Assembly: GCA_027489365.1 (NCBI GenBank) | Contig: JAIXZV010000191.1 | Coordinates: 1 to 33,889 of the forward strand | Direction of reading: 5' to 3' | From: Sphingomonadales bacterium | Lineage (GTDB): Bacteria > Pseudomonadota > Alphaproteobacteria > Sphingomonadales > Sphingomonadaceae | Length of the DNA stretch: 33,889 bases | In this document: in pieces, positions 15,848 through 23,435 of the stretch | Position numbering within the stretch: the first letter of the stretch is position 1 | Layout: the number at the start of each line of letters is the position of its first letter | Notes under the pieces: generated by a model | What the model was told of the DNA's origin: nothing | Databases searched by the model: none | Seen by the model: only the letters and a program-made list of their open reading frames with translations | Position numbers and translations under genes: made by a program

Positions 15848-16570
15848 TCAAGCGGCAATGCGGCGCTCGATTGCCTGCCACAGCCGCGCGAATGCCTGCG
15901 CGCCCGCCGATTTGGCGGCGAAGCTGCCGACCGGTGCGCGCCGCGCGGTGACTTGCTCGATCAGGCTCGCCATCGGGATGACCGGCCAATCGGGATGCCG
16001 CGCCAGCGCGTCGGCATGGAGCTTGCGGCGGCCATCGACCATCGAATGCACCGGCATCACCTGCGCCTTCGATCCGAGATGCTTGAGCACTTCGGCGAGC
16101 GCGCGCTCTGACAAAGGCGATGGGATGACGGGCACGACGATCAAATCGGCGGCACGCATTACCTGGTCGCTCGTCTCGGTCAGCCCCGGCGGGCAATCGA
16201 GCAGGATGCGGTCATAATCCTTGCGCAGGCCGGTCAGCAGCTTTTGCAGCCGCTTTTTCTTGTCGAGTTCATGAAACAGCAGGTCGAGCCCGCGCAGCGA
16301 CGCATCGGCGCGCAGCAGATCGAGCCGCGGGGTAGTGGTCTTCTCGATCAGCTTGTCCGGGCTGACATCCTTGGCGAAGACCGATTGGGCTTGGCCCTTC
16401 GCCTTGGGGTCGGGCGTAGCGCTCAGCAGGAAGCTGGAGGCGGCTTGCGGGTCGAGATCCCAGAGCAGGGTGCGCCGCGACGATGCGGTCGCGGCGACCC
16501 AAGCGAGATTGACGGCGAGCGTCGTCTTACCGACGCCGCCCTTCAGACTGTAGATCGCAATCGTCGACAC
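15848..16570 (-). CDS. ParA/MinD-family P-loop ATPase
   Basis: A 240-aa deviant Walker A ATPase. 'LKGGVGKTT' at residues 9-17 carries the signature lysine, 'LLWDLDPQAASSF' is the A' motif, and 'ILLDCPPGL' is Walker B. The family includes chromosome, plasmid and protein-cluster partitioning factors. No parB or centromere-like repeat is nearby, so it is likely an orphan ParA that positions some cargo or a cell-division/regulatory complex. It starts with GTG. Downstream is aat (18 nt). The substrate cannot be deduced. Confidence 0.88.
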   Translation of the reverse strand: MSTIAIYSLKGGVGKTTLAVNLAWVAATASSRRTLLWDLDPQAASSFLLSATPDPKAKGQAQSVFAKDVSPDKLIEKTTTPRLDLLRADASLRGLDLLFHELDKKKRLQKLLTGLRKDYDRILLDCPPGLTETSDQVMRAADLIVVPVIPSPLSERALAEVLKHLGSKAQVMPVHSMVDGRRKLHADALARHPDWPVIPMASLIEQVTARRAPVGSFAAKSAGAQAFARLWQAIERRIAA

Positions 16571-17171: not shown

Positions 17172-17567
17172 CTAAAGTGCCGCAACGACGTCGGTGTGCG
17201 TGAAATCGTCGCCCTTGAAGAGCAAGGGCTGGCGCGTTGCCTTGGCCAAAGCATAGGAAAAGCAGTCACCCAGATTCAATTGCGCCGAATCGCCCGATCC
17301 GCGCCCATAACGGCGATACGCCGCGTGGCCGATCATCGCCTGATCGACGCTGACCGCCTCGATCACGATGGCGAATTTCGCGATGAACGCATCGATTCTG
17401 GGCAACAGCTTTTCGCAATCGGGATGCCGCGTCACGACCGCGGCGAGTTCGATCCAGCTCCCCCCGGATATGTGGCGGGTCGGTGCGGCCACCAAAGCCT
17501 GCGTAATGGCGACGGCCTCCGGTTCGTTCAAAAATAGCGCCATGATTGCCGATGTGTCGATGATCAT
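17172..17567 (-). CDS. vapC: VapC-type PIN-domain toxin ribonuclease
   Basis: A 131-aa PIN-domain RNase, the toxin of a type II toxin-antitoxin pair. The acidic Mg-binding residues are visible: D4 in 'MIIDTSAIMAL', a Glu in 'SWIELAAVV', the Asp in 'LGDCFSYALAKA', and the Asp pair in 'LLFKGDDFTHTD'. VapC toxins typically cleave tRNA or rRNA. Its ATG overlaps the antitoxin stop by 4 nt (ATGA, 17564-17567), so translation is coupled. The track ORF's longer start (17630) is antitoxin sequence in another frame. Confidence 0.93.
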   Translation of the reverse strand: MIIDTSAIMALFLNEPEAVAITQALVAAPTRHISGGSWIELAAVVTRHPDCEKLLPRIDAFIAKFAIVIEAVSVDQAMIGHAAYRRYGRGSGDSAQLNLGDCFSYALAKATRQPLLFKGDDFTHTDVVAAL

Positions 17568-17830
17568 AGCGGCAGGCCATCGTCGTCGTAGATCGAATCC
17601 ATAATCTGCTTCGAGGTCTTGCCTTCCCATTCCGGCGGCAGATTGGCCATGAATTCCGCACTGAGCTCCCGCACGAAGCGCAGTGCGTCCTCCAGTTTCT
17701 CCGCGCGGGCGCGCTGCTCCCGCTCAAGGGCGGTGCGGATCGTCGCCGTGATCGTTTCGCCGGACGATCCCGCCAATTCCTTGGCGAGCCGGATCGTTTC
17801 GGCATCCTTGATGTTGAGTTGCACACCCAT
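17564..17830 (-). CDS. vapB: VapB-family antitoxin
   Basis: An 88-aa antitoxin in the Rv0623-like VapB family. 'MGVQLNIKDAETIRLAKELA' is typical of its N-terminal part, followed by 'SGETITATIRTALERE', probably the DNA-binding ribbon-helix-helix-like half. The acidic C-terminal half ('LPPEWEGKTSKQIMDSIYDDDG') would wrap and block VapC. The start at 17830 is set by a strong AGGAGG ribosome-binding site about 6 nt upstream. It precedes vapC with a 4-nt overlap and probably represses its own promoter. The gene is divergent from cysK. Confidence 0.92.
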   Translation of the reverse strand: MGVQLNIKDAETIRLAKELAGSSGETITATIRTALEREQRARAEKLEDALRFVRELSAEFMANLPPEWEGKTSKQIMDSIYDDDGLPL

Positions 17831-17926
17831 ATCTACCTCCTGCGCCAGCCGATCTACCACAAGCGCTTGATCGCCGCCAAGCGAAGCCTGCTTGCCCGGA
17901 GCCGAGCGGCGACCTAGCTAAAGCCG
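17831..17926. promoter_or_regulatory. Divergent vapBC / cysK promoter region
   Basis: A 96-bp gap. A perfect 10-bp palindrome CAAGCGCTTG lies at 17860-17869, 30 bp from the vapB start. VapBC complexes bind palindromes in their own promoter, so this is a candidate operator. No clear -35/-10 pair is seen for cysK, whose start lacks a strong Shine-Dalgarno. Confidence 0.4.
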
Positions 17927-18966: not shown

Positions 18967-19302
18967 ATGCCACAGCCTATGAAAATGATCGCACAGCACC
19001 CGCAAAGGGAAGCAGGCCAGACAACCCAGCGCGTGAAGGTCGGTATGATCGGCCTTGCTGCGGTGGTCCTGCTCATCGGTCTGGCGGCCGCCATCTTCGC
19101 GACGATCAACCATGACCGCGATGTCGCCGCGATCGGGAGCGCTCGGCCCGAAGTCGTTTCAGCGATCGTCTCGGGCAACAGTGCAGCGACGGCGACGACC
19201 GCGACCAAGGAGCCGCTCGCCGAGCTGGGCGTCGCGCCGAGCGCCGAAATCGCCAGCAACACCGCCCAGCCGCAATCGCGCCCCGCGCACCCGCAGCGGT
19301 GA
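18967..19302 (+). CDS. Small single-pass membrane protein, hypothetical
   Basis: A 111-aa protein starting at ATG 18967 (an ATG at 18979 is also possible). A short N-terminal cytoplasmic part ('EAGQTTQRVKVG') precedes one transmembrane helix ('MIGLAAVVLLIGLAAAIFATI', about residues 27-47) and a periplasmic, low-complexity tail rich in Ala/Ser/Thr and ending in Pro/Gln repeats. I do not recognise it. Its place just upstream of mraZ suggests a sphingomonad-specific neighbour of the dcw cluster, but no division role can be claimed. Confidence 0.65.
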   Translation: MPQPMKMIAQHPQREAGQTTQRVKVGMIGLAAVVLLIGLAAAIFATINHDRDVAAIGSARPEVVSAIVSGNSAATATTATKEPLAELGVAPSAEIASNTAQPQSRPAHPQR

Positions 19303-19325
19303 TCGCGCAGCGTCGCTGTGCGGCG

Positions 19326-19345
19326 GGGAAATCACGGGAAATCAT
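19326..19345 (+). promoter_or_regulatory. Two tandem GGGAAATCA boxes
   Basis: GGGAAATCAC followed directly by GGGAAATCAT, an exact 10-bp repeat. It carries the same GGGGAA-type core as the opposite-strand boxes at 19468-19503, 120-180 bp away. It is a possible second MraZ-binding site in inverted orientation; two boxes alone could be chance. Confidence 0.4.
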
Positions 19346-19467
19346 GCCGGATCACACCACCGCCTTCGGGGAAGCGCGGGATGGCGAGACGCATTCTTCG
19401 AACACAGCAGGAACAAGCTGATATGACGCGACAAAAATGGACGGCGAATTTAAGGAATTAACCGTAC

Positions 19468-19503
19468 TTCCCCGTCATTCCCCGGCTTTCCCCTTGTATC
19501 CCC
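19468..19503 (-). promoter_or_regulatory. Candidate MraZ operator: four boxes at 10-bp period
   Basis: TTCCCC at 19468, 19478 and 19488 and ATCCCC at 19498, each separated by 4 nt, so the period is exactly 10. On the minus strand this reads GGGGAW-N4 repeated four times. E. coli MraZ, a ring-shaped oligomer, binds TGGGN repeats spaced at 10 bp in front of its own operon. The array lies 123 bp before mraZ, matching that architecture, with core GGGGA on the opposite strand. Confidence 0.65.
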
Positions 19504-19522
19504 GGTAAACTGCGTGTTAACT
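19494..19522 (+). promoter_or_regulatory. Candidate dcw promoter overlapping the box array
   Basis: TTGTAT (19494-19499), 17-bp spacer, TTAACT (19517-19522). The -35 lies inside the last two TTCCCC boxes, which would let MraZ block RNA polymerase. The -10 matches the consensus only 3/6, so the exact promoter is uncertain. The leader to mraZ would be about 95 nt. Confidence 0.4.
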
Positions 19523-19625
19523 CTGCTTCCAACAGGGGCAGACTCATCTCGCCTGCGCGACAGTGCGCTGAGCATCGCAACGGACGCGATTCTCGGGACG
19601 GGAGAGGTTTGCCCGCCGGAGCGGG

Positions 19626-20132
19626 GTGGGCGTGGACGAACGCAGCGAATATCAGGGAGACGGTCTTGGCCTTGTCGATGACAAGGGCCGGGTCGCGATT
19701 CCCGTTTCGCTGCGGCAGGCGCTGGCGACCAACTCGCCGCGTCCCGACGGCAAGGATGGCGGTACGATCATCGTCGGCGTGCATCCCAAGCAGCGCTGCC
19801 TGCGCGCCTACGACCCGGCGTACGTCAAGATCCTGAAGGCCAAGGTCGAAGCGCGCGAGGCGCAGCACACGGGCGAGGACGGCGAGCCCAATTACAATTT
19901 CAAGCGCCGCGGCGCGAGCGGCGAACAGGCCCCGTTCGACGGATCGGGCCGTTTCATCATGCCGGCTTTCCCGCGCGACTATGCCGGCATCGGCGAACAT
20001 GCCTTTTTCTGGGGCACGTTCGACTGGATCGAGATCTGGGACCCGGCGACACTGATCGCGGCGACCGATGTCGATCCGGTGATGCAGGCTGCCTGCCGTT
20101 TCCATTGCAAGCAGAAGGGGATCGCCCTGTGA
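19626..20132 (+). CDS. mraZ: Transcriptional regulator MraZ
   Basis: First gene of the dcw cluster. MraZ is an AbrB-like DNA-binding protein that represses its own operon. The 168-aa product has two SpoVT/AbrB-like halves: '[20 protein letters not shown]' at residues about 14-33 and '[22 protein letters not shown]' in the second half, each with the signature D-x-x-G-R-[FV]-x-[IM]-P. Two in-frame GTGs (19626, 19632) could start it; GGAG at 19618-19621 is better spaced for 19632. It ends with a GTGA overlap with rsmH. The likely binding sites lie at 19468-19503. Confidence 0.94.
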
Positions 20133-21124
20133 TCCCTTCAAATCCTGTGACCCCCGCAGAGGCTGTGAACGACGCGCCGCATGTGCCGGTCTTGCTTGCC
20201 GAAGTGCTCGACGCGCTCGCCATTGCCCCCGGCGAGACGCACGTCGACGCGACCTTCGGTGCGGGCGGCTATACGCAAGCGATGCTGGCGCAGGGCGCGC
20301 GCGTGTTCGCGTTCGATCGTGACCCGGATGCGATTGTAGCGGGCGCGGCGGTGGTTGCGGCGTCGGACGGTGCGCTGACGCTGGTGCCCGCGACCTTCTC
20401 GGCGATGGACGCCGAACTCGCGGCGCGCGACGCCGTGCCGGTGCAGGGCGTGACGATGGATATCGGCGTGTCGTCGATGCAGCTCGACCAGGCCGAGCGC
20501 GGGTTTTCGTTCCAGTCCGACGGTCCGCTCGACATGCGGATGAGCCAGGAGGGCATGAGCGCCGCCGACTTCGTCAACGAAGCCGACGAAGCCGAGATCG
20601 CCTTCGTGATCAAGGAATATGGCGAGGAGCCGCGCGCGCGCCGCGTTGCGCAGGCGATCGTCTATAATCGGCCGATCACACGCACCGGCGAGCTTGCGCG
20701 GATCGTGCGCAAGGCGCTTGGCTACAAGCCACACGACAAGAAGGACCCTGCGACGCGGACCTTCCAGGCGATCCGCATCCATATCAATCGCGAGCTGGGC
20801 GAACTGGCCGACGGCCTTGCCGCAGCCGAGCGCGTGCTCGCGCCCGGCGGTCGGCTGGCAGTGGTGACGTTCCACAGCCTGGAGGACCGGATGGTCAAGC
20901 GGTTCCTGCGCGAACGCAGTGGATCGCTGCCGTCGGGATCGCGGCATTTACCCGAAGTGGCGGCGAAACACGCGCCGAGCTTCGAATTGGTCGGGCGGGC
21001 GTTACGCGCCGACGACGATGAGATCGCGCGCAATCCGCGCGCCCGTTCAGCCACGCTTCGTACGGCAACGCGTACCAGTGCCGCCGCGTGGCCGGAAAAA
21101 TCTGTGACAGAGGGAGCGATGTGA
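20129..21124 (+). CDS. rsmH: 16S rRNA m4C1402 N4-methyltransferase RsmH (MraW)
   Basis: RsmH methylates N4 of C1402 in 16S rRNA and is the standard second gene of the dcw cluster. The 331-aa protein has '[13 protein letters not shown]', the SAM-binding '[15 protein letters not shown]', '[21 protein letters not shown]', 'DGPLDMRM', and '[13 protein letters not shown]', with '[15 protein letters not shown]' at the end of the fold. The start is the GTG of the GTGA overlap with mraZ; the track's ATG at 20105 would overlap mraZ by 28 nt and is less likely. It ends TGATG onto ftsL. Confidence 0.96.
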
Positions 21125-21708
21125 TGCTGGGTCTGGCGTGGAAGAGCCTCGGGTGGTTTCTGGCGGGTGTCGCGGTGGCGCTCGGGTTCCTGCTGGTGCC
21201 GTTGCAGGTGGCGGCCGAGCGCAAGAAGCTCGACCGTACTGCGGCCGAGATCGCGCGCGCCAAGCGCGACATTCGCGCGCTGGAAACCGAATTCGACACG
21301 CGCGCGAGCCTGGCGCAGCTCGACAAATGGAATGCCGAGTCGCTCGGCATGGTGGCACCGGCCGCTGACCAGTTCGTCGCGGACGAAGCAGCGTTGGCGT
21401 CGATCGAGCCGACCGCCGCTGGCTCGGGTCCGCAGATGGCGGCGTTCGTGCCCGCCGCGCCGGTCTATGCGACGACCAGCCAGGCCCCGGTTGCCGAGCC
21501 TGCCACAGCCGCGCCGCCCGAGACGGCACCCGCTCCGCGCGCCGCGATGGCAGCGGTCAGCCAGCCGACGTCGCAACCGGCAGCCCGTCCGCGCACCGAA
21601 GCGCGCCCGCGTGCGGCGGTGGCGTTGCTCGACCGCGCCTTGCTCGACGATAGCGTGATCGGCGACTTGCGCAGCGGTGCGCGCGCCGAAACCGGACGTG
21701 GGCGGTGA
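21124..21708 (+). CDS. ftsL: Cell division protein FtsL-like
   Basis: A bitopic membrane protein in the position and topology of FtsL, which with FtsB and FtsQ activates FtsWI in the divisome. The 194-aa product has a short cytoplasmic start, one transmembrane helix ('LGWFLAGVAVALGFLLVPLQV', residues 9-29) and then a coiled coil ('AERKKLDRTAAEIARAKRDIRALETEF'). The rest is a long Ala/Pro-rich disordered tail, longer than in E. coli FtsL (121 aa). GGGAG 7 nt upstream fixes the ATG at 21124, which overlaps the rsmH stop by 1 nt. Sequence identity of FtsL is low, so the call rests on position and topology. Confidence 0.85.
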   Translation: MLGLAWKSLGWFLAGVAVALGFLLVPLQVAAERKKLDRTAAEIARAKRDIRALETEFDTRASLAQLDKWNAESLGMVAPAADQFVADEAALASIEPTAAGSGPQMAAFVPAAPVYATTSQAPVAEPATAAPPETAPAPRAAMAAVSQPTSQPAARPRTEARPRAAVALLDRALLDDSVIGDLRSGARAETGRGR

Positions 21709-23435
21709 GTACGCTCGTCGCCCGCCCGATCCCGGCACGCCGCTCGACCGATCAGCGCCACGCGCTGGTCGCGGTCGCGCATGTGCGGCTGATGATGCTG
21801 ATGCTGCTGATCATGGCGGGGTTCCTGCTAGTGATCGGGCGGATCGCCTTGCTCGGCCTGCTGGGAGAGCCAGCGGGGGCGGCGACGCTGACGATCAATC
21901 CGGTGGTGCGCGGCGACATTCTCGACCGCAACGGCCAGCCGCTCGCGCGCACGATCGAAGCGTGGACGATCGGTGTCCGCCCGCCGGAATTGCTCGGCGA
22001 CCGGCAGGTGCTGGCGGGGCAACTTGCGACGCTGATGCCGGCGCATGATTCAGTCTGGTATCTCGACCGGCTGAACATGAAGGGCAAGTTCACCTATCTG
22101 GAGAAGCACGCGTCGCCCGCCTTGGTGAACCAAGTCCATGCGCTGGGCGAGCCCGGCATCGTCTTCGCGCGCGAGCCCGAGCGGCTGTATCCGCAGTCGA
22201 CGCTCGCCGCGCACGCGCTCGGCTATATCGGGCCGACGGCGACTGATCCGCACATCATGGGCCGCGCCGGGATCGAACGTGCGTTCGACGAGCGGCTGAG
22301 CGATCCGCGGCGGCGGGGGCAACCGATCGCGCTGTCGATCGATTCGCGCGTTCAGGCGGCGATGGAGAGCGAACTCGGCCGTGCGATGGTGTCGTTCAAG
22401 GCCAAGGACGCGACCGGCATCGTGCTCGACGTGCGCACCGGCGAAGTGATCGCGATGGTGTCGCTGCCGGTCTACAACCCCAACAAATTGAGCGGCACGA
22501 GCATCGATGCGCTGCGTAACAATGTAACGCAGTCGGTCTATGAACTTGGGTCGACCTTCAAGCCGATCACGGCGGCGGCGGCGATCGAGAGCGGGACGGT
22601 CACCTCGATGGCGCGGCGGTTCGATGCGACGGTGCCGCTCAAGGTCGGGCGCTTCACGATCCATGACGATCGCGGCGACGAACAGAAGCGCTGGCTGAAC
22701 ATCCCCGAGACGCTGATCTATTCCTCCAACATCGCGACTGCGCGGATTGCCGAGGAAATGGGCAAGGACAAGCTGACCGCGATGTTCACCGCGATGGGCT
22801 TTGGCGAGCGCCCGTCGATCGAGCTGCGCGAGCGCGCCGGGCCGATCTGGCCGAAATATTGGGGTAATACGACGCTGATGACGACCGCGTACGGCCACGG
22901 CATCGCGGTGACGCCGCTGCACCTCGCAAATGCCTATGCGACGCTGGTGAACGGCGGGATCTGGCGGCCGACGACGATGCTGAAGGTCGCCCCCGGCACG
23001 GTACCGGCGGGGCGGCGCGTGCTGTCCGAAGCGACGAGCGCGCGGATGCGGCAATTGCTGCGGATGATCGTGTTGCTCGGCACGGGTAAGAAGGGTGAGG
23101 CACCGGGCTACCGCGTTGGCGGCAAGACCGGGACGGCGGAGGTTGCGGGCGCGGGCGGGTATAACAAGCACGCCAATGTTTCGACCTTTGCCGCAGCCTT
23201 CCCGATGGATGCGCCGCGCTATGTGGTGGTGGCGATGCTCAATTCGCCGGTCGGGAATGCGGAGTCGTTCGGTCTCACCACGGCGGCGTGGACCGCAGCG
23301 CCGGTGGTCAGCCGCGTGATCGCACGGACCGGATCGCTGCTCGGCGTTACGCCCGATACGAAGCGCGATATCGACGTCTCGGAACTGATGCCGCTGGTGT
23401 GGCACGGCGCGGGCGACCGCAAGAACGCAGAATGA
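21705..23435 (+). CDS. ftsI: Septal peptidoglycan transpeptidase FtsI (PBP3)
   Basis: FtsI cross-links septal peptidoglycan and works with FtsW. The 576-aa protein has one N-terminal transmembrane helix (about 28-50), a pedestal domain starting 'VRGDILDRNGQPLA', and a class B PBP transpeptidase domain. The catalytic motifs are intact: 'GSTFKP' (Ser283, Lys286), 'SSN' (340-342) and 'KTGT' (474-477). It starts with GTG in a GTGA overlap with ftsL. Beta-lactams bind the active-site serine. It ends 7 nt before murE. Confidence 0.97.
   Translation: MSTLVARPIPARRSTDQRHALVAVAHVRLMMLMLLIMAGFLLVIGRIALLGLLGEPAGAATLTINPVVRGDILDRNGQPLARTIEAWTIGVRPPELLGDRQVLAGQLATLMPAHDSVWYLDRLNMKGKFTYLEKHASPALVNQVHALGEPGIVFAREPERLYPQSTLAAHALGYIGPTATDPHIMGRAGIERAFDERLSDPRRRGQPIALSIDSRVQAAMESELGRAMVSFKAKDATGIVLDVRTGEVIAMVSLPVYNPNKLSGTSIDALRNNVTQSVYELGSTFKPITAAAAIESGTVTSMARRFDATVPLKVGRFTIHDDRGDEQKRWLNIPETLIYSSNIATARIAEEMGKDKLTAMFTAMGFGERPSIELRERAGPIWPKYWGNTTLMTTAYGHGIAVTPLHLANAYATLVNGGIWRPTTMLKVAPGTVPAGRRVLSEATSARMRQLLRMIVLLGTGKKGEAPGYRVGGKTGTAEVAGAGGYNKHANVSTFAAAFPMDAPRYVVVAMLNSPVGNAESFGLTTAAWTAAPVVSRVIARTGSLLGVTPDTKRDIDVSELMPLVWHGAGDRKNAE

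Follow-up and report, generated by a model that had tools for sequence, protein, structure and literature searches.

E. coli reportedly carries an MraZ operator at the promoter PmraZ. Upstream of mraZ, strain K-12 of E. coli has the boxes AGTGGGAAAT, TGTGGGGCAA, AGTGGGAATA and AGGGGTGAGG on the plus strand, in steps of 10 bp and just before the ATG. For Mollicutes, the MraZ site is given as (AAAGTGKN3)n (Fisunov et al. 2016, cited in PMC5282649). In B. cenocepacia, four 7-nt repeats separated by 3-nt spacers have been proposed as the MraZ site of the dcw promoter PmraBc, and binding of MraZ has been shown for a fragment that contains the repeats (PMC7761207). An MraZ motif of alphaproteobacteria was not found in the open-licence literature searched, so the motif described here is useful for annotation. 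The array that carries it is probably a variant of the already known MraZ operator.

The array adjoins the head of the dcw cluster in a window of 33,889 nucleotides, i.e., the whole stretch of DNA that was analysed. On the plus strand, the regulator gene mraZ (19626-20132, GTG start) is followed by rsmH (mraW; 20105-21124, the actual start probably being 20132 or further downstream), an ftsL-like gene (21088-21708), and ftsI coding for the division transpeptidase (21705-23435; profile match). The ftsL-like assignment is based on cluster position and on a weak NCBIfam FtsL match (6.8e-4, below cut-off). The mraZ product matches the Pfam MraZ family (PF02381) at 3.3e-9, above the curated cut-off and in two domain stretches; it falls short of the NCBIfam equivalog cut-offs (best, NF001476, with 50.9 bits vs 162) and was missed in a six-frame Pfam search. 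Both DxxGR motifs (D18..G21R22 and D105..G108R109) are kept in the alignment with E. coli MraZ. An AlphaFold2 model built from 23 Sphingomonas sequences (pLDDT 85) has solved MraZ structures as its best matches, namely 1N0E, 9QLG, 9R4J and 9SZ7; 9R4J represents M. genitalium MraZ on its promoter, and 9SZ7 on a four-box promoter. The predicted protein is a divergent member of the MraZ family. A species of the same genus codes for a second MraZ-like protein with 33% identity (genome G332, C1:1886266-1886667). Elsewhere in the window, inspection of translations by eye pointed to a minus-strand ORF pair (17172-17860) that looks like a PIN-domain toxin (17172-17630) with its antitoxin (17564-17860), and to a minus-strand ORF for a ParA/MinD-like ATPase with a KGGVGKTT motif (15848-16570).

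The main array is located about 120-160 bp 5' of the mraZ start codon and consists of four boxes that read GGGGAW on the minus strand. Box 1 (19468-19473) and box 2 (19478-19483) are TTCCCC on the plus strand and GGGGAA on the minus strand; box 3 (19488-19493), likewise GGGGAA on the minus strand, lies directly 5' of the inferred -35 element, and box 4 (19498-19503; ATCCCC/GGGGAT) covers the last two bases of this element and part of the spacer. The box starts (19468, 19478, 19488, 19498) follow each other in steps of exactly 10 bp, as an earlier note on this DNA had stated for four boxes of the TTCCCC type; its observation that their orientation is opposite to that in E. coli is likewise borne out, with the minus strand used here and the plus strand in strain K-12. 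When the window was searched for three consecutive boxes with at most 3 mismatches, 4 matches were obtained, all of them inside the main array, as compared to 0.33 expected from shuffles. The exact three-box pattern occurs a single time in the 3.94-Mb genome, at the main array, and the remaining three-box matches of a genome scan at up to 2 mismatches are imperfect and scattered. The strict four-box pattern was found at no more than one place per genome in 41 relatives searched as whole genomes, which yielded zero matches to the reversed control pattern. The idea of a broader MraZ regulon was rejected for this genome, given that there is no second array and that the relatives have at most one such locus per genome.

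When 138 loci were aligned on the array, a TT right after box 3 and a TA located 23 bp further on were both found to be conserved. These positions probably mark a -35 and a -10 separated by a 17-bp spacer, the -35 being TTGTAT at 19494-19499 (TT 90-94% conserved) and the -10 being TTAACT at 19517-19522 (T and A in the first two positions each 87% conserved), both on the plus strand. A strict scan for the sigma-70 consensus found no promoter, and the overlap between array and -35 is therefore taken from the alignment; for the possible -35 that the boxes overlap according to the earlier note, the alignment offers conserved positions and the scan no consensus promoter. Transcription is predicted to start near 19529, which would give a leader of about 97 nt. 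In Sphingomonas, the segment following the -10 (about 19529-19560) shows strong conservation (AACAGRGGGCAG...CTC). The idea of a structured leader RNA, either UpsM-like or a riboswitch, was rejected, because there was no Rfam match within 19000-19800 and no terminator-like site was found. Inspection by eye for the CtrA-type motif TTAA-N7-TTAA near the array showed an imperfect copy only.

Conservation was analyzed in the mraZ upstream regions of 110 Sphingomonadaceae loci, mostly one per genus, and of 28 near Sphingomonas loci. A periodic model with a unit of 10 columns gave the minus-strand consensus A-N-G-G-G-A-W-W. In a two-fold held-out test, with the 99th percentile of shuffles as threshold, the array was detected upstream of mraZ in 105/110 family loci, and a period scan of the family loci scored period 10 far above periods 7-9 and 11-13. 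In the near Sphingomonas sample the array is visible by eye in 28/28 loci, so that the motif search in relatives suggested in the earlier note was successful in both samples. All 20 loci from other Sphingomonadales families carry a minus-strand array, as do 26/30 loci from other alphaproteobacterial families, with ATGGGAW as the usual spelling in both sets; the reversed orientation is therefore class-wide. A plus-strand array, mostly 50-100 bp from the start, is present in 20/28 loci from beta- and gammaproteobacteria. Many sphingomonads spell the box TGGGAA, which is identical to the E. coli K-12 box.

Occurrence of the array follows that of mraZ. Under one scoring scheme, in which a score reaching 14.5 was counted as an array, it was found in 0/14 MraZ-less vs 35/50 MraZ-bearing alphaproteobacterial loci (Fisher p = 1.6e-6, kinship ignored). 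Two genomes of one Sphingomonadaceae genus, AT-rich and about 2.1 Mb in size, have rsmH and lack both mraZ and the array. Genome G193, which was MraZ-less according to Pfam, in fact codes for a divergent MraZ and has kept the array; in the other alphaproteobacteria classified as MraZ-less by Pfam, neither an MraZ nor a convincing array was seen. At one locus (L144, genome G008), mraZ appears to be broken across frames, due to either a sequencing error or recent loss, and the array is intact. Its retention in most alphaproteobacteria with mraZ, and its absence from those without, mark the array as the predicted binding site of MraZ and as the probable operator of alphaproteobacteria in general, with a distribution wider than the sphingomonads. 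The suggestion that this might be the sphingomonad form of the MraZ operator accordingly needs to be divided: its reading as an operator agrees with the array in 105 of the 110 loci, and the orientation is shared with other alphaproteobacterial families. An operator confined to sphingomonads is ruled out by the arrays of these families. The spelling CGGGGAW and the distal pair are more local features than the reversed orientation.

The distal pair, CGGGGAAATCACGGGAAATC (19324-19343), is located about 140 bp 5' of the main array and in opposite orientation. It comprises two plus-strand boxes, GGGGAA (19325-19330) and, 10 bp from it, CGGGAA (19335-19340), and thereby confirms the inverted pair reported in the earlier note at about this distance. 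The pair is conserved: inverted two-box sites above the 99th shuffle percentile were found in 21/28 near Sphingomonas loci, as compared to 2/28 with sites in the same orientation, and at the same percentile in 37/97 vs 7/97 family loci. A model trained on the pair detected it in 40/97 family loci on cross-validation, the site not being significant in about 60% of them. In other alphaproteobacterial families, 5 inverted vs 3 same-orientation sites among 31 loci are close to noise.

The distances between the distal pair and the -35 gather near 140, 150, 160, 171, 181 and 193 bp, with few values in between. By the Rayleigh statistic, the strongest period among them is 10.5 bp (R = 0.69), and none of 20,000 uniform sets was as strong; off-phase distal sites were also detected, e.g., at 96, 108, 137 and 207 bp. 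Since related species could mimic phased spacing, an rsmH tree was constructed, the final version of which leaves out locus L039 because its sequence had produced an alignment artefact. The spacing class changed at least 31 times on this tree, an approximate number of events given that the tree is a quick one with many open forks. For 18 pairs of loci on non-overlapping tree paths, the spacing differences (9, 10, 10, 10, 11, 11, 13, 20, 23, 32, 36, 41, 42, 44, 44, 62, 63 and 105) favour 10.5 bp (p = 0.00025), and thus insertions and deletions are tolerated mainly in whole turns. Whole-turn spacing is the classical signature of sites that need to be on the same face of the helix, and it is as expected for looping or for face-of-helix contact, both predicted here from spacing. 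The possibility of looping, raised in the earlier note, gains support from these new data. Inverted GTGGG-type pairs 5' of the plus-strand array were seen in 12/29 loci from beta- and gammaproteobacteria, vs 2 in the same orientation; at six loci (L222, L226, L227, L235, L236 and L237) an inverted GTGGG pair lies 100-220 bp upstream of the array. Looping outside the alphaproteobacteria is therefore possible as well.

Between the distal pair and the main array, the plus strand contains GAAC-N7-GAAC (19400-19414), an LexA/SOS-type motif with the known alphaproteobacterial LexA pattern. It occurs exactly in 18/110 family mraZ upstream regions, with 0.1 expected, its distance from the -35 being near 74, 84, 94, 104 or 114 bp. 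Its presence at mraZ suggests an SOS input into the division cluster, which may be an additional one that does not belong to the MraZ operator. Consensus groups of the GTTC and GAAC types from alphaproteobacterial LexA sites have been used (PMC6473078), and B. subtilis LexA binds upstream of a mraZ at a gut metagenome site (PMC3998124). The search for a canonical LexA in this genome returned sub-threshold matches only. A LexA-like S24 gene, sub-threshold for TIGR00498, is found on contig C227 of the same genome (about position 1105 of the reoriented locus L280), with GTTC-N7-GTTC about 30 bp 5' of its likely start; this arrangement is consistent with the motif being the LexA box of this genome. 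A plus-strand DnaA box, TTATCCACA, is present upstream of mraZ in 33/110 family loci, with 0.2 expected (e.g., at L015 and L026, about 250-280 bp before mraZ), and in 0/28 near Sphingomonas loci.

The turn-like steps of the LexA-type site bear on one alternative, namely, that the array is an MraZ site and the distal pair either a relic or the site of some other factor, its phasing reflecting a general helical constraint. Since the LexA-type site is also spaced in turns from the -35, phasing is not a property of MraZ boxes alone, and the absence of the distal pair from many loci points in the same direction. Nevertheless, the pair has the box and the internal 10-bp spacing of the array, its inverted form is far commoner than the same orientation, and inverted GTGGG pairs occur in beta- and gammaproteobacteria, where the main array is on the other strand. 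We consider this alternative rather unlikely. A broader proposal is that sphingomonad MraZ loops the array to the inverted distal site, with the LexA-type site on the same face inside the loop, the output of the division genes thereby combining autorepression with DNA-damage signalling, and that looping, suggested by the pairs in beta- and gammaproteobacteria, is an overlooked and more general mode of MraZ action; this we put forward tentatively, as something that may be the case without being the expected outcome.

The mechanism that we favour, and regard as likely, is that MraZ, from the four-box array, autorepresses the dcw promoter and perhaps loops the array to the distal pair; all four elements of this reading (MraZ binding, repression as the sign, the promoter, and the loop) are ones that we infer. 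An MraZ ring would occupy, along one side of the helix, the four GGGGAW boxes phased by 10 bp. With box 3 adjoining the -35 and box 4 overlapping it, the bound ring would cover this element, obstruct sigma-70 and repress the cluster, mraZ itself being part of the feedback loop. The distal pair, about 13-19 helical turns 5' of the -35 in Sphingomonas and in a large share of Sphingomonadaceae, would most likely be bound by MraZ too; in many sphingomonads, occupation of the inverted pair, either by the array-bound ring or by another one, would close a loop, and DNA looping, or a ring-to-ring contact along the same helical face, would strengthen repression. As to the sign of regulation, repression is what the analogy with E. 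coli and with M. genitalium suggests. In M. genitalium, loss of MraZ raises transcription of the cluster (PMC8475190).

This result also argues against activation, in which MraZ would act from the array in a class I- or class II-like manner, with the distal pair as a site for recruitment or buffering. The position of boxes 1-3, 5' of the polymerase and upstream of the inferred -35, makes activation possible and differs from that of the E. coli array, which is downstream of the -10; moreover, overexpression of MraZ in M. gallisepticum was reported together with raised FtsZ (PMC8475190). The overlap of box 4 with the -35 and the spacer fits an activator poorly, and we regard activation as improbable. 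In R. sphaeroides, NtrX is a direct activator of mraZ (PMC7240162), so other factors do act at this alphaproteobacterial promoter, and the boxes might be bound by a different regulator of mraZ, such as NtrX or a cell-cycle regulator. However, the motif proposed for NtrX, GCA-n9-TGC (PMC7240162), is unlike the GGGGAW repeats, loci without mraZ lack the array, and the array fits the box and period of E. coli MraZ, which makes such a regulator very unlikely. Despite the GC-rich genome, a chance or compositional repeat of C-rich DNA is practically excluded by the shuffles and held-out tests, the strand asymmetry, the optimum at period 10, and the conservation in the family and in other alphaproteobacteria. 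The phased inverted distal pair leads to a concrete prediction, namely that MraZ loops DNA, and the strand flip of the operator between alpha- and beta/gammaproteobacteria offers a natural comparison of one ring protein acting from opposite promoter sides.

Compared to the systems described, the array in the window shares with E. coli PmraZ the regulator family, the TGGG/GGGG box, the exact 10-bp period, the number of about four boxes, and the position at the head of the dcw cluster. In E. coli, however, it is the plus strand that carries the boxes, which follow shortly after the -10 and adjoin the ATG, whereas those of the window read on the minus strand and lie 5' of the inferred -35, with an overlap; the E. 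coli-type arrangement, with coding-strand boxes downstream of the -10, is not found in the window array, and no inverted distal pair was found upstream of E. coli mraZ. B. cenocepacia PmraBc resembles the window array in having four repeats at a dcw promoter, and differs in that its repeats are downstream of the -10, as in E. coli (PMC7761207). In the operator of Mollicutes, as outlined in the secondary source, an MraZ oligomer likewise recognizes direct repeats that follow each other every 10 bp, and the model of the window MraZ is closest to the M. genitalium cryo-EM complexes 9R4J and 9SZ7; the box core in Mollicutes is GTG rather than GGGGA, and an inverted upstream pair is not mentioned in the part of the source considered. 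The repressor operators of the lac and ara systems are looped, and the effect of their distal operator depends on whole-turn spacing. The regulator of the window, a ring of AbrB-like domains, is unlike a lac- or ara-type protein. What the locus has in common with lac and ara is a putative second, distal operator at whole-turn spacing, recognized here from the spacing of the sequences and predicted to form a loop.
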